From positions 33,828 through 70,115 of the forward strand of contig PALM01000002.1 of NCBI GenBank assembly GCA_002706365.1: DNA of 36,288 bases, written 5' to 3'. The position numbers and the translations under genes were made by a program. Positions 25,829-36,138 of this stretch are shown piece by piece (positions within the stretch are counted from its first letter, which is position 1; every line of letters begins with the position of its first letter). The notes under the pieces are model-generated. The model saw only the letters and a program-made list of their open reading frames with translations. It was not told the DNA's origin and did no database searches. The stretch is from Flavobacteriales bacterium. GTDB lineage: Bacteria > Bacteroidota > Bacteroidia > Flavobacteriales_E > Vicingaceae.

Positions 25829-28165
25829 TTATCCTTTCTCATCTGAATAGTAGCCGTAACCATAACCATAGCCATAACCATAGGAGCCATATTTCCCTAT
25901 TGAACTTTTGGGCTTAACTGCATTCACAACGATCCCTATATTAGTAATGGATCTTTCTTCATAAAGTTGATTAATGTTCTCTAAATATGTCTTTTTTGTA
26001 TAATTATGCCTAACGATATATAGAGTTGCGTCTACAAATTGATTTAACAATAATGCATCTGTAACCAAACCTAATGGAGGAGAGTCAATAATGATCACTT
26101 CATATTTACTTTCTAGCTCTTGTATTAACTCTTTCATTGGTTCACTTTCTATTAATTCTGCTGGATTTGGCGGAATAGGACCAGCAGAAATTAAGTCTAA
26201 ATGAGGAATTTTAGTTACTTGGATGGCATCTTGAAGGGTTATCTTTCTAATTAATAAATTACTGAGTCCAAATTCATTTTTCAAACCAAAATCTTGATAA
26301 ATTTTAGGTCTCCGCAGATCTGCACCAACTAACAAAGTTTTTTTACCGGACGCAGAATACATTGCTGCTAAATTGATTGAAGTGAACGTCTTTCCTTCTC
26401 CGCTTACTGAGGAGGTGACTAAAACTTTTATTGAAGGTTTATCTGGCACCATAAAGTTCAATTTAGTCCTGATAGAACGAAATGCTTCTGCCATTACCGA
26501 TTTTAATGAATCAGTAACAATAATATTATTATTCAAATCCTTTTTAAGGAAAATGGAACCAAGAATTGGGATGGAAGTGAAGCTCTCTAACTCTGACTGA
26601 TCTACAATTTTATTATTTAAGACATAGATTAATAAAATTAAAAATGCAGGAAATAATATTCCAAAAAAGATTGAAAACCCAAAAATTGAAGCTGGTTTTG
26701 GACCTAAGAATCGAACCCGAAAAGGACTGGCATAATCTAATATTTGTGCCTTTTCTACGTTTGACGCTTTTGCAATACTAGCCTCAGAGCGTTTATTCAA
26801 TAAAAAAGTATATAAATCACCTAATATTTTATTCCTTCTCTGCAGTTTTAAAAATTCTCTTTGTTCTTTTGGAATTTTCAACACTTTTTCTTCTTCCCTT
26901 TGAATTTCAATCTTCAATGAATCAATTAGCTTTGTAACTTGATCTAGATTTGATTTGGCTACCTCATAAAGATCTTTCTTTCTAGCCTCAACTTCATCGT
27001 TAGCACGTTCGGCTAATAAGCTATTGGACTTTAATGCCAATGCTCTTTCCTTTTCTATGGCAATAGCCTCCATCAAGATCGATATCATTCGATCTATATT
27101 AGGATCTTGAAAACCAAATACAGCTGCAGATGGAAATGCAGTAAAATCCTTTTGTTTCACTGTTTTCATCAAGGCTGCATAGTACTCTTTCTGAACCGCC
27201 CTTTGTGTTTGAAGTTCTTCTAAATCAAAAACTCTTTTCAAATTATTTACATCTTCTTCTACAAAAATCCTGTCCTTAAAGTTCCTTTTTTGAAATTGCT
27301 CTAGGCGAAACTCAGTTAAAACCAAGGAATCAGCAATTTCTCGCAATTGATAATCTATAAATTTAATGGTATTGGTAGCAATTGTATTATTTTGCTCTAC
27401 ACCCCAGTCAATGTATGTCTCCATTAGAGTATTTAAGAAATCGATTGATTTAGCAGGGGTAGTCCCGCTATGGCTTAAAATCAATATGGATGATTCTTGA
27501 TTTTCAACATCTATACCTATACTGCCTTGTAAATTACGGGCTAAATTATCTATTGATACAAACTGAAAAAAGTAAGATTCGCTAGAGTAAACACTATTTG
27601 ATTTTACCACAATTTTAAACTCTAAATCACCAGTAGAATATGAGGAATCTAAGGCCTTCGTCTCTGCCTCTGTCAGTTCTTCTTTGATTTGTGAGATTCT
27701 ATAAACACCCTCTTTGGGAAAGTCGATATAATAAGACCCTGTCGCCTTACCTTTCTGGAGTTCAACTCTAAAATCAGAGCCAGGATAAAGCTCTGTAGTT
27801 TTTATATTACCTACTTTATAATAGTCAATTGGATGATCTAATCGATTTGCTACTTTTCTCATTAAGGGGAAAGAGCGGATTATTCCAATTTCATTAACTA
27901 ACCTATTTCTTCCACTTACTAATTCCATTCCTGGCAAGAAATACTCTTGCCCCCATGATGAGTACTCATCTTTAACCAACATTCGTGAACTTACAGAATA
28001 GGTTGAAGGTGTATATCTGAATTGATAATAGGCGTAGATAGTAGATCCAGCTAGCCCAATTACGAGGAGGTACCAATAATTAATAAAATAAGCCAAAAGT
28101 ATTTTTGGCTCAATTTGGATGGTATTTGAACTAGAACTGCGCACGTGTAAATATTTGAAATGCAA
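25829..28165 (-). CDS. wzc: Wzc-type polysaccharide co-polymerase / BY-kinase tyrosine autokinase
   Basis: The product is 778 residues. The N-terminus has a first membrane helix (about 27-47) of the Wzz domain, followed by a long periplasmic coiled-coil region and a second helix near 505-530 (FGFSIFFGILFPAFLILLI). The cytoplasmic BY-kinase domain has Walker A SSVSGEGKTFTSIN, Walker A' LLVGADLRRP and Walker B IIIDSPPLG. The C-terminus is a tyrosine cluster with eight Tyr between 759 and 773, alternating with Gly. Such proteins set polymer length and export through phosphorylation cycles, working with Wzy and an outer-membrane Wza. No Wza or cognate phosphatase is seen nearby. The start is TTG (28165) or GTG (28144). 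It heads the - strand operon, divergent from the T9SS-protein gene. Confidence 0.95.
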   Translation of the reverse strand: MHFKYLHVRSSSSNTIQIEPKILLAYFINYWYLLVIGLAGSTIYAYYQFRYTPSTYSVSSRMLVKDEYSSWGQEYFLPGMELVSGRNRLVNEIGIIRSFPLMRKVANRLDHPIDYYKVGNIKTTELYPGSDFRVELQKGKATGSYYIDFPKEGVYRISQIKEELTEAETKALDSSYSTGDLEFKIVVKSNSVYSSESYFFQFVSIDNLARNLQGSIGIDVENQESSILILSHSGTTPAKSIDFLNTLMETYIDWGVEQNNTIATNTIKFIDYQLREIADSLVLTEFRLEQFQKRNFKDRIFVEEDVNNLKRVFDLEELQTQRAVQKEYYAALMKTVKQKDFTAFPSAAVFGFQDPNIDRMISILMEAIAIEKERALALKSNSLLAERANDEVEARKKDLYEVAKSNLDQVTKLIDSLKIEIQREEEKVLKIPKEQREFLKLQRRNKILGDLYTFLLNKRSEASIAKASNVEKAQILDYASPFRVRFLGPKPASIFGFSIFFGILFPAFLILLIYVLNNKIVDQSELESFTSIPILGSIFLKKDLNNNIIVTDSLKSVMAEAFRSIRTKLNFMVPDKPSIKVLVTSSVSGEGKTFTSINLAAMYSASGKKTLLVGADLRRPKIYQDFGLKNEFGLSNLLIRKITLQDAIQVTKIPHLDLISAGPIPPNPAELIESEPMKELIQELESKYEVIIIDSPPLGLVTDALLLNQFVDATLYIVRHNYTKKTYLENINQLYEERSITNIGIVVNAVKPKSSIGKYGSYGYGYGYGYGYYSDEKG
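25853..25883 (-). repeat. In-frame hexanucleotide repeat encoding the Tyr-Gly tail of Wzc
   Basis: On the coding strand this is about five units of TAYGGY (TATGGT, TATGGC, TATGGT, TATGGT, TACGGC), each coding Tyr-Gly. The repeat could change in copy number by slippage without breaking the frame, altering the number of phosphorylatable tyrosines. Confidence 0.7.
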
Positions 28166-28441: not shown

Positions 28442-31400
28442 ATGAAAAAAATTGTCTTCTTTACAGCCATTTCTTTGACAGTCCATTTATGTTCCGCTCA
28501 AATTGGGCCTGGAGGAGTTGGCAATAGTGCAAATAATATCCTATGGTTGGATGCAAATGATTTGTTGCTTAATAATGGTGACCCTGTTAATACATGGCCT
28601 GACAAATCTGGCAACAACAACGATGCAATTCAAAGTACGTCGACCAACCAGCCCACATTTGTTTTATCGGCAACTAACAACAGATCAGCCTTAAACTTTG
28701 ATGGGTCAAATGATTTTTTCAATTTAGGTAACCACATAACATCCAATGCAATAACCTTCTTTGCTGTTTATCAAACCTCGGTTACCAATGGAAGGACATT
28801 AATTAATTTAGAAAATCACTATTTCTTTCATCAAAATCAGAACATCAGAGCTAACTATGTGAACCCCAACTCACAAATTTCCGTGCTTGCCACAGCAGGG
28901 AGCAATTACCGTGTAGTTGAAATTGCTACAAACAGTGATTCACTAACAGGTACTGTTGCTATGAGGTCGGGAGTTTCTTCTACCTTAGCTGCTAGAACCC
29001 AGTTGAGAGGCAACCCAAATAGTACTATCGGAGTATTCAACACCTCAAATTTTTTAAATGGGCGTTTAGCAGAAGTTATTCTTTATAATTCAAATTTAAA
29101 TACTGCTCAAAAAAATATTATTTCAAATTACCTGGCTGCAAAATATAATGCTCGAAATTTTGTAAATCTTTATAATTATAAGAGCATTTTCAATAATGAT
29201 ATCTTCGGTATTGGTCAAGAAAGCGATGGTGGTCATTTTACTGCAAGAGGGGTGGACTCTCTTCAAATTAGTAATGCTTCTTCATTAGGTAATGGTGATT
29301 ACATTCTTATTGGCAATAATGGTGGAGATTTCAATGTAAATACTAGCGTCCCTGGAGGTATAACCGAAAGATGGAATAGAGCATGGAGAGCAGACCTAAC
29401 TGGAACACCAGGTAGTATTGACTTAGAATTCTTTCTAGGTTCAAATGGATTTGCCTCTACGAGTAACTATGTATTACTTGTTGAAACAGATGATGGGGAT
29501 TTTAGCAATGGCGGAACATATATTGATCTAGCTTCTCCGGTATATGACCCTGTTGACAATTCCATCTCCTTTTCTAATGTAAGTTTTCCAGATGGCGCAC
29601 GGTTTACTTTAGCTGAAAAGTCAGGAGTAATTACCGCAATTAGCAGTGGAAATTGGAACTCAATTTCTACTTGGGATTGTAGTTGTATTCCATCATTAGG
29701 AAGTGAAGTAATTATTCCCAGTCCTATTAATGTAATTGTTGATGCTAATTCATTCACTGGAGGTCTTGATATTAATAGTGGTGCTTCAATTAGCTTTATT
29801 GGTAATGACTCACTTTTTATAAATGGGCCTCTCATATTTGGCGAACCAAGCTCATTTAACAACGGTACAATTGTAGATGCTTCAACTGCTGGCTTGCAAT
29901 CTATTGATAATAATAGCGGAGGGATAGTATCTTTCAATAACTTTTTTGGAAATAATCCAGATGGAGTTCAATTTACTGGAGGAGACTTTGAGTTGACTGG
30001 CAGTCTAAGGATTTCACAAGGAGGCATGGACGTATCCAATGCGAATAGCTTTACTTTGGTTTCAAACTCAAGCTCAACTTCACAAATTTTAGAATCAATG
30101 TCAAATGCTTTTGCAGGTGACTTTGTAGTGCAGCGATATATAGGTCCAAGAAATGCAAATTTTGCAAATTTATCATCACCTATTGTTAATGCTACTGTTG
30201 CTCAATGGGATGATGATCTATTTTTGAGTGGTGTAGGTGGGGTTGATGGCAATGCAGTAGCTTCCGGTGGAGGTATCTTCTATTCAGTATACTCATACAG
30301 CCGTCAACAAGATAAACACGATACAATTACTTCAGTATCAACGGCTATTGTGCCAGGTCAAGGTTATGAATTATGGTTAGCAGACAATTTATCAACCTTC
30401 AATGGTAGAATAATTGACTATAATGGAACACCAAACTCTGGTGATGTAATTAGTGCATTTGTCGATAAAGGTTGGAATTTGCTTGGTAATCCATATCATA
30501 GTTTTATTCAATATGATAGTATCAGTACTTCAATTTGGGTACCAAACAGTTACTATATCTTCAATACGAATAATGGAAGTTATGATTTCTTTAACGGAGC
30601 AAGCAAGCCTCCTATTGCTCCAGGTCAGGGATTCTGGATTAATAAAATTCCTGGTGGAACCAAAGTTGTAGATTTTAGGGAAGTAGCTAAAGTAAATTCA
30701 AATTCTTCATCATTCTTGAGGAAAGCTATTAATAAAACATTCTCTTTGAGAATAAGCAACGAAATTAACACATTTAGTCATCTTGCTAGCATTGATTTTG
30801 ATGCAAACTCAACTGACAAAATTGATGAGAAAGATGGGTATTATTTACCAAGCCCTGAGAAAAGAGCACCAGCAATCTTCTCGAAAGCTTCCAATAGTGA
30901 TGAAGGCTTAATCTTTAATAGTCTTAGCCCATTTGAGCAAAATCATGTTATACCTATGTCAGTATATACAGGTGTAAAGGGTAAACATACGATTTCAATT
31001 CAAAATATAGGTGAAGCTTTAAAGGAGTATAACTGTATCTATCTATCTGATAAAATGGAAAGCAGCCTCATCGATTTGACTGTTGAACAAGAATATGATT
31101 TCTTTTCAAATTCTACAGCAACATCTAATCGCTTTGAATTGATTTTGAGCAATTCATTCGATGAATGTCAAAAATTGGTTGAAGGTGAACTTAGTATCAT
31201 TCAAAAACTTGATGATGCCATTTCCTTAAGAAATAATCAAAGTGGGTGGTGGATCGATTACAGTTTTAGTTCTCCTGACCAAAAGCAGCTTGAGATTAGG
31301 GTGTATAGTCTAGCCGGCCAATTAGTAGTGTCCCCTGAATCTGTTAGTGTAAATGGCAGCGGTTCACTTGCCCTCTCGCAATTGAGAAGTCTAAATGGCA

Positions 31401-31459
31401 TCTTTCTAATTCAAGTGATTGGTGGTGGTGAAATTGTCAACCAAAGAGTAAAACTCTAA
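28442..31459 (+). CDS. Secreted LamG-like multidomain protein with T9SS type A C-terminal sorting domain
   Basis: The product is 1005 residues from the ATG at 28442; the in-frame ATG at 28355 would put the signal peptide inside the protein and lies upstream of the promoter box. Residues 1-19 are a signal peptide (cleavage after CSA). A concanavalin/LamG-like jelly roll follows (about 25-240: NILWLDANDL, TWPDKSGNNNDA, ALNFDGSNDFF, LAEVILYNSNL). After it come a beta-rich region with DIFGIGQESDGGH and a probable G8/beta-helix segment starting GNWNSISTWDC. The last 75 residues (LEIRVYSLAGQLVV, LNGIFLIQVIGGG, VNQRVKL) form a T9SS type A domain, which takes the protein through the outer membrane and anchors or releases it at the surface. 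It is divergent from wzc. Probably an adhesin or glycan-binding surface protein. Confidence 0.85.
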   Translation: MKKIVFFTAISLTVHLCSAQIGPGGVGNSANNILWLDANDLLLNNGDPVNTWPDKSGNNNDAIQSTSTNQPTFVLSATNNRSALNFDGSNDFFNLGNHITSNAITFFAVYQTSVTNGRTLINLENHYFFHQNQNIRANYVNPNSQISVLATAGSNYRVVEIATNSDSLTGTVAMRSGVSSTLAARTQLRGNPNSTIGVFNTSNFLNGRLAEVILYNSNLNTAQKNIISNYLAAKYNARNFVNLYNYKSIFNNDIFGIGQESDGGHFTARGVDSLQISNASSLGNGDYILIGNNGGDFNVNTSVPGGITERWNRAWRADLTGTPGSIDLEFFLGSNGFASTSNYVLLVETDDGDFSNGGTYIDLASPVYDPVDNSISFSNVSFPDGARFTLAEKSGVITAISSGNWNSISTWDCSCIPSLGSEVIIPSPINVIVDANSFTGGLDINSGASISFIGNDSLFINGPLIFGEPSSFNNGTIVDASTAGLQSIDNNSGGIVSFNNFFGNNPDGVQFTGGDFELTGSLRISQGGMDVSNANSFTLVSNSSSTSQILESMSNAFAGDFVVQRYIGPRNANFANLSSPIVNATVAQWDDDLFLSGVGGVDGNAVASGGGIFYSVYSYSRQQDKHDTITSVSTAIVPGQGYELWLADNLSTFNGRIIDYNGTPNSGDVISAFVDKGWNLLGNPYHSFIQYDSISTSIWVPNSYYIFNTNNGSYDFFNGASKPPIAPGQGFWINKIPGGTKVVDFREVAKVNSNSSSFLRKAINKTFSLRISNEINTFSHLASIDFDANSTDKIDEKDGYYLPSPEKRAPAIFSKASNSDEGLIFNSLSPFEQNHVIPMSVYTGVKGKHTISIQNIGEALKEYNCIYLSDKMESSLIDLTVEQEYDFFSNSTATSNRFELILSNSFDECQKLVEGELSIIQKLDDAISLRNNQSGWWIDYSFSSPDQKQLEIRVYSLAGQLVVSPESVSVNGSGSLALSQLRSLNGIFLIQVIGGGEIVNQRVKL

Positions 31460-31487: not shown

Positions 31488-31712
31488 ATGAAGAAATTAA
31501 TCACCATCACCTTCCTTTTTCTGGCCATTGGCTTTTCTCAAGACCTGATCGCTCAACCACCAGACCCAGGTGGAGGTGGAGATCCAAAACCGGGTTGTTT
31601 CCCACCTCCCTGTGTGCCAATTGATGGGGGTTTGTCCTTTCTATTGGCAGCTGGAGTAGCGTATGGAGGTAAAAAGGTTTACGATATGAATAAAAAGGAA
31701 GAGGAGCTATAG
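31488..31712 (+). CDS. Small secreted protein with PID-CTERM-like exosortase sorting tail
   Basis: The product is 74 residues from the ATG at 31488 (a TTG at 31476 is less likely). Residues 1-22 are a signal peptide (LITITFLFLAIGF core, cleavage after LIA). A short Pro/Gly-rich segment with two cysteines (C37, C42) follows. Then comes the motif PIDGG (44-48), a hydrophobic stretch LSFLLAAGVAYGG (49-61) and a basic start KK, the tripartite signature of a sorting signal (motif, membrane segment, positive charge). It matches what I recall as the PID-CTERM domain of Bacteroidota exosortase systems. The gene lies 28 bp after the T9SS protein and is followed by a terminator. The likely processor is the exosortase encoded 1.3 kb downstream. 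Function of the mature peptide unknown. Confidence 0.85.
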   Translation: MKKLITITFLFLAIGFSQDLIAQPPDPGGGGDPKPGCFPPPCVPIDGGLSFLLAAGVAYGGKKVYDMNKKEEEL

Positions 31713-31728
31713 GCGCCTCTTTTTTTTT
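31701..31728 (+). terminator. Rho-independent terminator after the PID-CTERM gene
   Basis: A GAGG...CCTC stem with one internal mismatch (31701-31719) overlaps the stop codon and is followed by nine T residues (31720-31728). Position and T-run support termination of the T9SS-protein/PID-CTERM transcript. Confidence 0.7.
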
Positions 31729-31807
31729 ATGACCATTTTCTAACCCCTAATTACGAATTACGAATGGCATTCGAAATCAAGAATATCTTTTAGTTATCTA
31801 AATATTT

Positions 31808-31891
31808 CACAGGGGATCTCAGGGTAGCACAGAGAACTACAGGGAAGATTTAAGTCTTGAACAGTCGACCTCGACCTTCGACCCCGACCTC
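31808..31891. repeat. Composite intergenic repeat, copy 1 (CACAGAG block plus TCGACC block)
   Basis: The left part has CACAGGGG, CTCAGGG, CACAGAG and ACAGGGAAG in imperfect tandem. The right part (31865-31891) is a degenerate run of TCGACC units. The order matches the copies at 32844-32984 and 33570-33680. No ORF. Copies of such blocks are common between genes of Cytophagales, as far as I recall. Confidence 0.6.
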
Positions 31892-31917
31892 AAAGAAATT
31901 GCCTTATTTTCGTATTC

Positions 31918-32376
31918 ATGAAGAACTTTTGGCTTTGGATACTTTTTCTAGCCCTTCTATTCGTTGGGAGTTATTATAGGGAGGTTCTCTTCCGTTCTGT
32001 AAACGCCTTAATCGCCGGTGAAGATTTCTTCTATGCCAAAACCACCTACCTCCCTTTCCTGGCTGATTGGAGTCGGGGGGAGTTGGTGAAATTGAAGTAT
32101 GGGATGACGGTGGGGTTCTCGGTCTTCTTTATGGGAGTGAGTTTGTTAGGGTTGAAGCTTTCGCTTAATGAGAAATGGCCCTATTATCTACTATCCATTA
32201 TCTATTTATTACTGATCATGGTTGCGGCAATTACTGTGATCATTGGATTAGTTTTCCTGAGTTTTTCAGAGGTATATCCCTTTCTTCGGATGATGATCGG
32301 GTGGTTTCATTCACCGGTGTTGTACCTGCTGCTAAGCGCAGCAACCTTTGCTATTAGGCAGATCGATCAAAATTGA
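31918..32376 (+). CDS. Four-helix membrane protein, probable exosortase-associated protein
   Basis: The product is 152 residues with four predicted membrane helices (about 2-20, 62-80, 88-115, 130-147) and no enzymatic motif. After the first helix comes YYREVLFRSVNALIAGEDFFY, an Arg-Glu-x-Leu-Phe pattern like that of the small membrane proteins encoded next to Bacteroidota exosortases (the XrtF/XrtX-associated types). It lies between the PID-CTERM gene and the exosortase gene on the same strand, each separated by repeat-rich DNA, and its start ATG is the first in frame, with near-consensus TATTTTCG upstream. A role as an exosortase partner or stabiliser is inferred from context and this weak motif; a different small membrane protein cannot be excluded. 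Confidence 0.62.
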   Translation: MKNFWLWILFLALLFVGSYYREVLFRSVNALIAGEDFFYAKTTYLPFLADWSRGELVKLKYGMTVGFSVFFMGVSLLGLKLSLNEKWPYYLLSIIYLLLIMVAAITVIIGLVFLSFSEVYPFLRMMIGWFHSPVLYLLLSAATFAIRQIDQN

Positions 32377-32402
32377 TAAAACAGAAAATTATCTACTTAA
32401 TA

Positions 32403-32804
32403 CTTACTTTTTGGTGGGCAAAAAGTAAGACAAAAAGCCCAGGCCTTCTCAAATTGTTGTATCCACTCATATAAGCTAAGTAAAACCGGCAGATCTTCAA
32501 GCCAGCTTGAAGCTTGCCTCTTTACTATGCTTCTCTTTCGCTCCTCCAACAACTTTCGAAGATGCCAACCTTATCATGCCTTTGACATGATAGCGCGTGG
32601 GACAGATTCTGTGCCGGGCCGGCGCGAGCCATAGCGCAGAAGGATCACAGAATCTTGACTTTTTTGGTTTCCGCCGGTAGGCGGACAAGCTGTTTTTGTG
32701 TCAAGACAAAAATGAACAGAAGGAAAATCATAGCCTTGATTTTTGCTCCATCCCGCTCAAGCGGGAAAAAAGTGGAAAAAAGAATTACCCCACCAAAAAG
32801 TAAG
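32403..32804. mobile_element. 402-bp non-autonomous element with perfect 16-bp terminal inverted repeats
   Basis: The left end CTTACTTTTTGGTGGG (32403-32418) is exactly repeated inverted at the right end (32789-32804). The left end is also a local hairpin (CTTACTTTTTG / CAAAAAGTAAG, 11 bp). The inside is G+C-richer than its surroundings and full of short inverted repeats: TATCATG/CATGATA (32572-32592), AGATTCTGTG/CACAGAATCT (32604-32655), CCGCC/GGCGG and CCCGC/GCGGG. There is no coding sequence and no transposase. A clean target duplication is not seen (AATA lies on both sides, offset by one base). It fits a MITE or a REP/BIME-like structured repeat; similar TACTTTTTG-ended repeats recur in Cytophagales genomes. 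Confidence 0.6.
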
Positions 32805-32843
32805 GAATAGAAAGCATAGATGAATCACCATTAGTAGCTGTGC

Positions 32844-32984
32844 CACAGAGGCGTTATCCGCCTTTGGCGGAATAACTAACACAGAGAAGGCAGGGAGTTA
32901 CACAGAGGGTAATAGAATCGCTTGGAATCAAGATAATGATTTTGATCTTATCAATAATTTCGTCCTCGTCCTCGTCTTCGGTCC
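32844..32984. repeat. Composite intergenic repeat, copy 2, upstream of the exosortase gene
   Basis: CACAGAGG followed by a hairpin (GTTATCCGCC / GGCGGAATAAC, one-base bulge, 32853-32876), then CACAGAGAAGG, CAGGGAG and CACAGAGGG. It ends with a CGTCCT triplet-like run (32961-32984). The order is the same as copies 1 and 3. It ends 25 bp before the exosortase start and may carry promoter or regulatory function. Confidence 0.6.
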
Positions 32985-32995
32985 TAAAACGGGAG

Positions 32996-33003
32996 TAAAT
33001 TTG
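32996..33003 (+). promoter_or_regulatory. -7 promoter box (TAAATTTG) for the exosortase gene
   Basis: TAAATTTG is an exact match to TAnnTTTG and ends 6 bp before the ATG at 33010, implying a near-leaderless message. It overlaps the alternative TTG start at 33001, arguing against that start. No clear -33 box was seen. Confidence 0.45.
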
Positions 33004-33009
33004 ACCTTA

Positions 33010-33546
33010 ATGAAAAATAAAATCAAGGATTTTTATTTAGCTAATAAGGAGGCAGTACTATTTGTACTAAAGCTTATCGGGCTATACCTAATCCTGCAAG
33101 GAATATATGATTATATCCTAACCCCTTACACAGCAATTGACAGCTGGCTGATCAACAGCATTATCGCTTCTTCTGAAAGCGGCCTCCAGGCCTTGGGCTA
33201 TGAGTTGATGCAAAACACCTATTACCAATACCACATGGGTATTGCCGGTACTTCCGGAGTGGTGATCGGGAATCCTTGTGATGGATTGAGCCTCTTTATT
33301 CTTTATACTGCGTTTGTGGTAGTGTTTAAGGGGAAGTGGTGGATGAAGCTTTTGTTCATTGTGCCAGGGATCTTATTGATCCACTTTTTGAACGTGGCCC
33401 GGGTGATGGGATTGGCGTTGATCGTGAAGTATTATCCTGATTCATTGGATTTTCATCATTCGTATACTTTTACGCTATTGGTATATACTATTATCTTCGC
33501 CCTTTGGATGATTAGAATCAAGTTCTACCAGAAACGAAAAGCGTAA
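33010..33546 (+). CDS. Exosortase family transpeptidase/protease (Bacteroidota type)
   Basis: The product is 178 residues with about five membrane helices. The exosortase/archaeosortase catalytic set is present: Cys C90 in IGNPCDGLSLF, Arg R131 in HFLNVARVMGLAL, and His H149/H150 in LDFHHSYTFTL, each at the periplasmic end of a helix in the usual order. Enzymes of this family cleave sorting-tail proteins at the inner membrane and are usually tied to polysaccharide loci. The likely substrate is the PID-CTERM protein encoded just upstream. The ATG at 33010 is chosen over TTG 33001 because a -7 box overlaps the latter. Which Xrt subfamily (XrtX is a candidate from memory) needs a profile search. 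Confidence 0.9.
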   Translation: MKNKIKDFYLANKEAVLFVLKLIGLYLILQGIYDYILTPYTAIDSWLINSIIASSESGLQALGYELMQNTYYQYHMGIAGTSGVVIGNPCDGLSLFILYTAFVVVFKGKWWMKLLFIVPGILLIHFLNVARVMGLALIVKYYPDSLDFHHSYTFTLLVYTIIFALWMIRIKFYQKRKA

Positions 33547-33569: not shown

Positions 33570-33680
33570 CACGGAGGCGCTTTGCTCCGCAAAGCTAAAA
33601 CAGAGCCCCGACCCAGTCAGGGTCATAGAGGCTCGAAAAGAGCATTTCATTCCAAAGTTCCGTCCTCATCTTGGTACTCA
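33570..33680. repeat. Composite intergenic repeat, copy 3, degenerate, before the exosortase relic
   Basis: CACGGAGG followed by a hairpin (GCTTTGC / GCAAAGC, 33579-33595), then ACAGAG, CAGGGTCATAGAGG and finally GTCCTCATCTTGG (33662-33674). These blocks occur in the same order as copy 2, with more substitutions. This repeat lies just before the decayed exosortase fragment, as copy 2 lies before the intact gene. Confidence 0.5.
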
Positions 33681-33709
33681 TTCCTAACTCTAAGTATTCT
33701 CAACTAAAA

Positions 33710-33817
33710 CTGTATTTTCATCATTCTTATACATTCACACTTTTCGTTTATACCAGTTATACAAGTATTTTGGGGATTTGGGTGATGAGAATAAAACTTT
33801 ATCAATCAAGGAAGCTT
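33710..33817 (+). pseudogene. Relic of a second exosortase gene (3' end only)
   Basis: In one frame this stretch reads LYFHHSYTFTLFVYT, then a four-residue insert, then ILGIWVMRIKLYQSRKL. About 22 of 33 alignable residues equal the last 33 of the intact exosortase just upstream, including the His-His-Ser-Tyr block. No counterpart of the Cys or Arg regions is present and no start codon fits, so it cannot encode an active enzyme. Nucleotide identity is partial (for example TTTTCATCATTC is exact), implying an old duplication. Its last bases overlap the 3' end of the opposing SGNH-type gene. Confidence 0.8.
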
Positions 33818-34690
33818 AGAGTCATGCCTCAAAACTCCTTCAATTTGTCTAGTAAAAAACTTTGCGCCATTGGAGTTTAAATGATCAAAGTCACGATAGT
33901 AAGTATTTGGGAAAATGGCGTTAGTACTATCGATGACACAGATACCAGCATCAGCAAAGTTTTTTTTCAAAGTAGAATATTTATCAATTATATGTTTCGG
34001 AATTCTTTTTAAATATTCTTTTCTAAGTGGTGTCCCAACAAGGATGATTTCTACCCTTTTGTTACTGCACATATTTATTATTGAATCTAGATAATTAACG
34101 CTTATCTCAGATATATCTAATTCTCTATCATTCTTAAAGTAGTGCCTATCTATAGTAGCGTTGAGTTCATCTGTGTTAAAGCCATTCTGCTCAAATTGCT
34201 TTACCTGATTACTTAAGAATTTATAGTGATTTTTATGAGGATATAAGAACTGATGTTTTAAAAATATTTCTAAATAATCTTTGTATGAATATTTTATTCC
34301 AGAAACCTTCTCAAAATAAACCAAAGGGTAGAGTCTCCTGAACATTTCGTCTGCATGCCGATTGCTAAATTTTTCATCATTATAAGCAGAAATATTATGG
34401 TAAGAAAACCCTAATAATAATGTATTAGGTTTTGCATATTCGAAAAGCTTTTTAGCTTTTAGATAAGTTATTGGATAGGGTTCTGCTGGTAATGCGTAAT
34501 TGACACTGCTTTCAATATATTTTGTATTTAATCCCTGCTCCATATGGGAGTCACCCATTATCATATATCTATGAGGGCTTATACTGGATAATTCAACTTT
34601 AATAATCAAAAAGTTAGTCAGTCCTATAAACAGACATGCTATTATCCAAAAGAATAGAAATTGAAATATGGCAGTGAGGAAGCTCTTCAT
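33806..34690 (-). CDS. Membrane-anchored SGNH-type protein, probable O-acetylation partner of the MBOAT
   Basis: The product is 294 residues with one N-terminal membrane helix (about 9-31). It then has MGDSHMEQGLN (catalytic Ser S48 in GDSH) and near the end YRDFDHLNSNGA, with D267 and H270 as the Asp-x-x-His pair of an SGNH hydrolase/acyltransferase. This arrangement is that of AlgX/AlgJ- or DltD-like proteins, which take acetyl groups passed across the membrane by an MBOAT protein and place them on a polysaccharide in the periplasm. It starts at the MBOAT stop (TAATG, 1-bp overlap). Its last 12 bp overlap the exosortase relic on the other strand. Confidence 0.82.
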   Translation of the reverse strand: MKSFLTAIFQFLFFWIIACLFIGLTNFLIIKVELSSISPHRYMIMGDSHMEQGLNTKYIESSVNYALPAEPYPITYLKAKKLFEYAKPNTLLLGFSYHNISAYNDEKFSNRHADEMFRRLYPLVYFEKVSGIKYSYKDYLEIFLKHQFLYPHKNHYKFLSNQVKQFEQNGFNTDELNATIDRHYFKNDRELDISEISVNYLDSIINMCSNKRVEIILVGTPLRKEYLKRIPKHIIDKYSTLKKNFADAGICVIDSTNAIFPNTYYRDFDHLNSNGAKFFTRQIEGVLRHDSKLP

Positions 34691-36138
34691 TAAAAATCAA
34701 AATAGATAAAATCTTGCTGTTTAGACACATACCAAAGGATACTTTGGAATATAAGAAAATACCAAACGAAACGAACAGCCCTGCTCTTAATCCCTTTTAT
34801 AATAACAAAAGAATATTGATGTCCTCTACCAAACCATTCTACAATAAAAAAAAATGACAGTAATGCAAAAACATACTTACCATCGATAAATACTTTCATT
34901 ATCGGAAAATATGATGCATTTAAATTAAATATAGAGGATAATATATAAAGTGAAAACTCAACACTCTCTGCCCTAAAAAACACCCAAGCGATTACCGTCA
35001 AGAAAAAAGTCAAACCCATTCCACCTAATTCTTTCAAAGATGGCAACATCCTGTTTTCAGCTATTACTCCCAGATGAGTTCTATTCTTATTGGCCAGCAA
35101 TAGTGGAAGAAAATATATGGCATTCAATACTCCCCAAACAATGAAAGTCCAATTGGCTCCGTGCCAAAAACCACTCACGATAAAGATGATGAAGGTATTA
35201 CGCACTTTCATCCACTTTCCTCCCCTACTTCCTCCTAAAGGGATGTATACATAGTCTCTGAACCAGGTGGATAATGAAATGTGCCACCTTCTCCAGAATT
35301 CAGCAATGTCTCTTGAAAAATATGGTGTGGCGAAGTTTTGCATCAACCTAAAACCAAACAGCTTGGCTGTTCCAATGGCAATGTCTGAATAACCGGAAAA
35401 ATCCCCATAGATCTGAAAGGCAAAAAATATAGCTCCGATCAATAAGGTACTGCCATTGTAATCTTGATAATTATTGAAGATCAGATTAGCGGTCTCAGCG
35501 CAATTGTCTGCGATCACCACTTTCTTGAATAAACCCCAAAGAATCTGTCGCATGCCATCCACGGCTTTGGCATAATCAAACTGACGCTTCTTGTAGAATT
35601 GGGGCAAGAGATTGGTGGCCCTTTCAATGGGACCGGCAACCAATTGAGGGAAGAAACTGACAAAAGCGGCAAAGGAGATAATGTCCTTGGTTGGCTCTAG
35701 TCGTTTCTTATACACATCAATGGCGTAACTCAAGGTTTGGAAGGTGTAGAAGCTAATTCCTACCGGCAGTATGATATTCATACTATAGCCCTTGAAATGG
35801 TATCCCAGCAATGAAAAGGCATCAACGAAGCTTTCCTGAAAGAAATTGAAGTATTTGAAGAAACCTAAGAATCCAAGGTTGACCAGAATACTGGTCCATA
35901 ATAGGACCTTTCTTCTCTTTTGATTATCGGTCTTACCTAATTGATTCCCTACCCAGAAATCAACAAAGGTGCTGAAGGCGATCAGGGAGAGGAATCTCCA
36001 ATCCCACCAACCGTAAAAGACGTAGCTGGCTACAACAATGAGGGCATTCTGCGCCTTTAAGCTATGCTTGAAGACAAACCAATAGAGGAAGAATACTATT
36101 GGTAGAAATAGCGCAAAATCAAGTGAGTTGAATAGCAT
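34690..36138 (-). CDS. AlgI-like MBOAT family O-acyltransferase
   Basis: The product is 482 residues with about eleven membrane helices. It begins MLFNSLDFALFLPIVFFLYW, the usual AlgI/DltB-like start. It has ILPVGISFYTFQTLSYAIDVY (124-144), FFPQLVAGPIERA (162-174) and FWRRWHISLSTWFRDYVYIPLGG (281-303, split by the family's conserved WH), and the catalytic His H326 in SGFWHGANW. These enzymes move acetyl groups from a cytoplasmic donor through the inner membrane. It is cotranscribed with the SGNH-type gene. Together they probably O-acetylate the exported polysaccharide in the periplasm, in addition to the cytoplasmic WcaF-like enzyme. Confidence 0.93.
   Translation of the reverse strand: MLFNSLDFALFLPIVFFLYWFVFKHSLKAQNALIVVASYVFYGWWDWRFLSLIAFSTFVDFWVGNQLGKTDNQKRRKVLLWTSILVNLGFLGFFKYFNFFQESFVDAFSLLGYHFKGYSMNIILPVGISFYTFQTLSYAIDVYKKRLEPTKDIISFAAFVSFFPQLVAGPIERATNLLPQFYKKRQFDYAKAVDGMRQILWGLFKKVVIADNCAETANLIFNNYQDYNGSTLLIGAIFFAFQIYGDFSGYSDIAIGTAKLFGFRLMQNFATPYFSRDIAEFWRRWHISLSTWFRDYVYIPLGGSRGGKWMKVRNTFIIFIVSGFWHGANWTFIVWGVLNAIYFLPLLLANKNRTHLGVIAENRMLPSLKELGGMGLTFFLTVIAWVFFRAESVEFSLYILSSIFNLNASYFPIMKVFIDGKYVFALLSFFFIVEWFGRGHQYSFVIIKGIKSRAVRFVWYFLIFQSILWYVSKQQDFIYFDF

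Follow-up and report, generated by a model that had tools for sequence, protein, structure and literature searches.

The exosortase XrtX encoded in the window (the whole stretch of 36,288 nucleotides from a marine Flavobacteriales bacterium that we analysed) appears to have a peptide precursor as its substrate, not a tail-bearing protein, and the peptide would be transferred to a surface acceptor, with a role in the extracellular matrix or in adhesion. We give this reading a probability of about 0.6. It builds on what was observed directly, namely the gene families, the conserved catalytic residues, the size of the cargo, the linkage of the genes and their co-occurrence. Three open reading frames on the + strand, encoding proteins of 74, 152 and 178 aa, lie where a preliminary description of this DNA had placed them. 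The system is already catalogued: NCBIfam has models for, and names, all three parts (NF046080, NF046082 and NF046081). No paper naming ‘PID-CTERM’ or exosortase XrtX was found in the literature searched, nor were the rule of cargo-less precursors, the pairing with a T9SS gene or the XrtF substrate candidates described below; the NCBIfam model notes lie outside that search and may mention the small size.

The first of the three genes (31488-31712, + strand) encodes the 74-aa precursor, MKKLITITFLFLAIGFSQDLIAQPPDPGGGGDPKPGCFPPPCVPIDGGLSFLLAAGVAYGGKKVYDMNKKEEEL. Its earlier designation as a PID-CTERM substrate was borne out by a search with curated models, in which residues 43-66 match PID_CTERM (NF046080) at 47.5 bits, the cut-off being 26. 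The protein carries the signal peptide (assigned by inspection, not by SignalP), the PID-GG motif, the hydrophobic helix and the basic C-terminal tail, here KK, that define the family, and XrtX is encoded at the same locus, as PID-CTERM membership asks of the genome. The predicted mature part, QPPDPGGGGDPKPGCFPPPCVPID, has about 24 residues. This architecture is conserved among relatives. Pfam holds no model for the precursor, for its membrane partner or for most of the T9SS-type protein encoded upstream.

The third gene (33010-33546, + strand) encodes the 178-aa enzyme, recognised at first by its Cys/Arg/His set. The HMM search agreed, with 172.6 bits on the XrtX model NF046081 (cut-off 170) and 53 bits on the exosortase/archaeosortase signature TIGR04178 (cut-off 23); on the XrtF model TIGR04128 it scores 85.9 bits, under the cut-off of 90. 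Numbered on the window protein, the motifs are C90-D-G92, N128-V-A-R131 and H150. Cys90, Asn128 and Arg131 are invariant in 52 homologues, His150 is kept in 51 of them and Gly92 in 50. The third motif reads HSYTF, with a Phe four residues past the His, and does not fit the His-x-x-x-Gly of the EpsH type; EpsH has Gly at this position (PMC1569441) and the XrtX family Phe, a family-level difference. Sequence searches returned no convincing solved relative of XrtX (best E 0.67). The window genome has one exosortase above cut-off. Downstream of it, at 33671-33880 (+ strand), lies a degraded second copy of the XrtX C-terminal region, which the XrtX model matches with an E of 2.9e-5 (G000:C2:67495-67638) and which shows as a 43-nt direct repeat, 81% identical, beginning 265 bp past the original.

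Between precursor and enzyme genes, a 152-aa membrane protein with four transmembrane segments is encoded (31918-32376, + strand). It matches the XrtX-associated model NF046082 over its full length, at only 25.2 bits (E 1.1e-5) for a cut-off of 75, whereas the window precursor and enzyme both pass theirs. An iterated profile seeded with the 152-aa protein reaches L131:9008-9550, which itself scores 148 bits on NF046082; on the basis of this profile link we regard the partner as homologous to the XrtX-associated membrane protein, though it stays under the curated line. Its AlphaFold model (pLDDT 93.6) contains five confident helices, the last two of which are probably one broken transmembrane helix, so that calling it a four-helix partner was fair. 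A fold search of the PDB with this model gave nothing under E 0.001.

The three parts thus stand in a row, as in other XrtX/PID-CTERM systems, in the order PID-partner-XrtX, where many other loci have PID-XrtX-partner. The row is less compact than it had been called. A terminator-like hairpin followed by a U-run (31690-31729, + strand) overlaps the stop codon of the precursor gene; it folds at -19.1 kcal/mol (z -5.18), and zero shuffles fold as well. A simple consensus terminator scan did not list it. In addition, about 630 bp separate the partner gene from xrtX, and this interval includes a non-coding element of about 412 bp with 21-nt inverted terminal repeats (32398-32809). Two partial relatives of the element occur elsewhere in the window genome.

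To see how much cargo such precursors carry, we estimated the mature segment, from the signal-peptidase site through PID, in relatives at family, class and phylum level. In about 72 precursors of the phylum it measures 13-45 residues, with a median of 22; these estimates place signal-peptidase sites by rule of thumb, not by SignalP, and consider frames of less than 230 aa only. The filter passed 74 rows, of which at least two were clearly not precursors and were left out. The longest segments have 38 residues (L135) and 45 (the second precursor of the window genome, described below). An independent check by open frames places the PID occurrences in frames of less than 200 aa, with one exception in a frame of 995. 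Hardly any PID precursor in the sampled phylum would therefore have room for a folded cargo. The segment between signal peptide and PID is Pro/Gly-rich and abundant in Cys, with Ser, Thr and Asn scarce. In Bacteroidia it usually ends in C[WFI]PPPC[VI]PID, found exactly in 49 of 83 sequences; some C-x(2-9)-C ahead of PID is present in 65 of the 83. Families tentatively named Balneolia-like have a segment without Cys, for example QPGLPSAPSQAPID. Taken over the phylum, the comparison suggests that exosortases of the XrtX kind generally process tiny peptides. The earlier proposal of a structural or signalling peptide, and not of general sorting, fits this near absence of room for cargo.

Enzyme and precursor also go together across genomes. 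All 48 genomes with PID-CTERM proteins, among 296 genomes of the phylum, carry an exosortase recognised by the XrtX model (at least 40 bits), and PID proteins are present in 40 of the 42 genomes whose XrtX reaches at least 140 bits (Fisher ~1e-39). A partner homologue is found in 75 of 80 named XrtX loci, and the linkage of enzyme, PID target and small partner is conserved. The idea of a lone target did not hold. The window genome encodes a second PID-like precursor (L002:1462-1761, minus strand, contig 23) of the same architecture, with a signal peptide, a long Gly/Asn stretch, CVPPPCVPID, a hydrophobic segment and a basic tail; it scores 22.8 bits on PID_CTERM, below the cut-off of 26. Other genomes have 1-9 PID precursors, single-XrtX genomes up to 9, and in Balneolia-like genomes their genes are scattered away from XrtX. 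Two precursor genes share one locus in L236 (Adhaeribacter soli) and in L086, whose genome has nine PID places. Culturable bacteria with XrtX include two Adhaeribacter species and Acidiluteibacter ferrifornacis, whose locus is the same as that of the window. The M48 peptidase gene beside this second precursor of the window genome was tried as an indicator that a second substrate is conserved, and set aside: it has orthologues in only two other genomes searched, and neither of these has an adjacent PID-like gene.

A conserved product this small, encoded in several copies in some genomes and possibly bearing a disulfide loop, could also be a diffusible signal or an antimicrobial, cut by XrtX and released without attachment to the surface. 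We consider this quite unlikely, given how strongly the locus is linked to Wzc, polysaccharide and T9SS genes, as described below. Alongside, we noticed no gene for a dedicated exporter or receptor and none of an immunity-like kind, and the linker-like Pro/Gly sequence hardly changes from genus to genus, which sets it apart from typical pheromones.

The tightest neighbour of the precursor gene had escaped the preliminary description. It is the gene of a large secreted protein of 1,005 aa (28442-31459, + strand), which ends 29 bp upstream of the precursor gene. The protein has a signal peptide, an N-terminal LamG/ConA-like jelly roll, a beta-rich body and a T9SS type A-like sorting domain, for which it scores 21.6 bits on TIGR04183, just below the cut-off of 23; the seven same-locus homologues tested all reach this cut-off, with 24-31 bits. 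Its structure model (pLDDT 75.7, pTM 0.45) is reliable at domain level only. The N-terminal jelly roll gave generic structure matches: kinship with clostridial NTNH/BoNT binding domains, sialidases or pilins was rejected, the Foldseek matches reflecting this common domain. TM-scores are 0.18 or less when normalised to the 1,005-residue query, and 0.66 for the match to AbnA domain 4 when normalised to the latter's own length. A C-x-C is conserved in the middle of the protein and of its homologues, appearing as TWxCxCxP in the alignment consensus.

Among the 80 named genome loci, 26 of 61 precursor genes have a T9SS-type gene immediately 5′ of them in the same orientation, with gaps of -1 to 135 bp. 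The background is low, 2.3% of the other genes in the same loci being preceded by such a gene; the resulting p of 1e-26 is too small, since the loci are related by descent. Among relatives, the same arrangement was found in 20 of the 28 precursor-bearing loci of one set and in nine more loci of a second. Five loci (L106, L110, L116, L119 and L120) keep the T9SS gene next to the precursor gene while XrtX and its partner lie about 15 kb away, beyond other genes that in several of them form a polysaccharide cluster. At the window locus, the hairpin at the precursor stop codon suggests that T9SS gene and precursor form a single transcript that would end before the partner gene.

This pairing could be taken to mean that the precursor is an inner-membrane helper in the folding, export or anchoring of the T9SS protein, which XrtX would only clear away: the two genes are the tightest pair at the locus, and in the window a terminator-like hairpin closes the pair. 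We find such a role distinctly improbable. The T9SS gene is missing from many Bacteroidia loci that do have the precursor, XrtX and the partner, and the scattering of PID genes in Balneolia-like genomes does not favour it either. Many Chitinophagales-like and Balneolia-like loci have a precursor with no T9SS gene before it, which indicates that the pairing is limited to certain lineages.

On the other side of the T9SS gene, transcribed divergently (25829-28165, - strand), lies the gene of a Wzc-type polysaccharide chain-length/tyrosine autokinase protein (175.7 bits on TIGR01007, cut-off 108). Polysaccharide genes adjoin the window locus, as the preliminary description had pointed out, and a Wzc-type kinase gene is present in 54 of the 80 named XrtX loci. 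Beside XrtX, on the opposite strand, an MBOAT O-acyltransferase gene (34690-36138) and a gene for a 294-aa protein weakly matching SGNH models (33806-34690) possibly serve in polysaccharide acylation. The frequent neighbour glyA (47 of the 80 named loci) was considered as a part of the system and rejected. Relatives in which it was found nearly always have no other SHMT gene, so we read it as a housekeeping gene that probably just happens to lie nearby. A search of the window's own assembly, where the contig stops at the right edge of the window, did not find glyA. In L103, L108, L111, L115 and most Bacteroidia XrtX loci, glyA often adjoins XrtX or the partner, sometimes with a 4-bp overlap.

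The polysaccharide genes at the locus, the frequency of Wzc and the conservation of the C-terminal PID also agree with a somewhat different function, in which the precursor supplies an anchor or linker for the exopolysaccharide (a peptidoglycan-like or glycopeptide cap) and XrtX transfers the peptide to a glycan carrier. Hydroxyl or amide residues to which a glycan could be attached are few in the peptide, and we hold this function to be rather unlikely.

The peptide-transfer reading that we prefer leans on the general exosortase model of Haft and co-workers, in which the tail arrests transfer in the inner membrane and cleavage takes place close to the motif. The enzyme has also been proposed to conjugate the new C-terminus to a compound; comparisons with T9SS and rhombosortase are given in PMC7468200. 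By analogy, we infer that XrtX both cleaves and transfers. The signal peptide would export the precursor, and the hydrophobic segment and cytoplasmic lysines would anchor it in the inner membrane. The cysteine of XrtX would attack at or next to PID|GG, leaving the Pro/Gly-rich peptide of about 24 residues, with its CFPPPC loop and possible disulfide, as an acyl-enzyme. The four-pass partner probably assists XrtX or presents the acceptor. The latter, at a guess, would be an amine- or hydroxyl-bearing molecule, probably a lipid or polysaccharide carrier from the neighbouring locus. Once at the surface, the peptide would probably act with the lectin-like T9SS-secreted protein encoded upstream in matrix building or adhesion; both this role and the partnership of peptide and T9SS protein are likewise guesses.

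One parallel is PEP-CTERM/EpsH (XrtA), which shares the signal peptide, short motif, hydrophobic helix and basic tail of the substrate, the membrane enzyme with Cys, Arg and His, and the exopolysaccharide genes (PMC1569441). The cargos differ. PEP-CTERM genomes encode many diverse ones, rich in Ser, Thr and Asn and poor in Cys, whereas PID genomes have their few, almost cargo-less precursors rich in Pro, Gly and Cys; the composition reported for PEP-CTERM cargo by Haft and colleagues is the opposite of that of PID segments (PMC1569441). With few Ser, Thr and Asn and much Cys in the mature peptide, the PEP-CTERM pattern, in which a glycosylated cargo is transferred, makes a poor template for this system.

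XrtF of Flavobacterium (TIGR04128, TIGR04127) is another: it is an exosortase of the same size, again with a small membrane partner, and some partner homologues weakly match both partner models. F. johnsoniae mutants lacking xrtF or its partner gene Fjoh_1449 show the same defects in biofilm, zorb formation and sand colonization as mutants deleted for the T9SS genes porU and porZ, and almost the same as a porV deletion; according to the authors, the XrtF substrates remain to be found (PMC10936215). Flavobacteriaceae-like genomes (L279-L307) with an exosortase at about 100 bits on the XrtX model contain weakly PID-like small ORFs, e.g. ...GPPPPPAAPPVGLPIDGNIYVLLVVSLAFGIYKIYNNKMIK. We call these exosortases XrtF-like from that score, not from XrtF-model scores, the family name being inferred. 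With a profile (A4) built from nine of these PID-like tails, tiny ORFs were detected in 22 of the 23 Flavobacteriaceae-like genomes that bear an exosortase, against 0 of 20 genomes of the class that lack one. Without the nine genomes that supplied the profile, the counts are 13 of 14 and 0 of 20 (Fisher 1.5e-8). These precursors resemble those of XrtX but have no CxPPPC loop. Their co-occurrence with XrtF-like exosortases, together with the xrtF phenotypes and the missing substrates, makes them candidate XrtF substrates.

Exosortases have been defined as enzymes that sort tail-bearing proteins. The precursors of the sampled XrtX genomes, each made up of a signal peptide, a short Pro/Gly/Cys stretch and the tail, leave almost no protein for sorting, and the question becomes what the peptide does. 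We see even odds that XrtX and XrtF in Bacteroidota are makers of C-terminally processed surface peptides of about 13-45 residues, from cargo-less precursors, and not general sorters; that, within part of the phylum, a dedicated lectin-like protein secreted by the T9SS acts together with these peptides; and that the XrtF substrates in F. johnsoniae are such precursors. Candidates are also offered for the substrates of XrtF in Flavobacterium, where knockouts show defects in biofilm and colonization like those of T9SS mutants (PMC10936215), and the link to the T9SS gives a concrete starting point for working out function.
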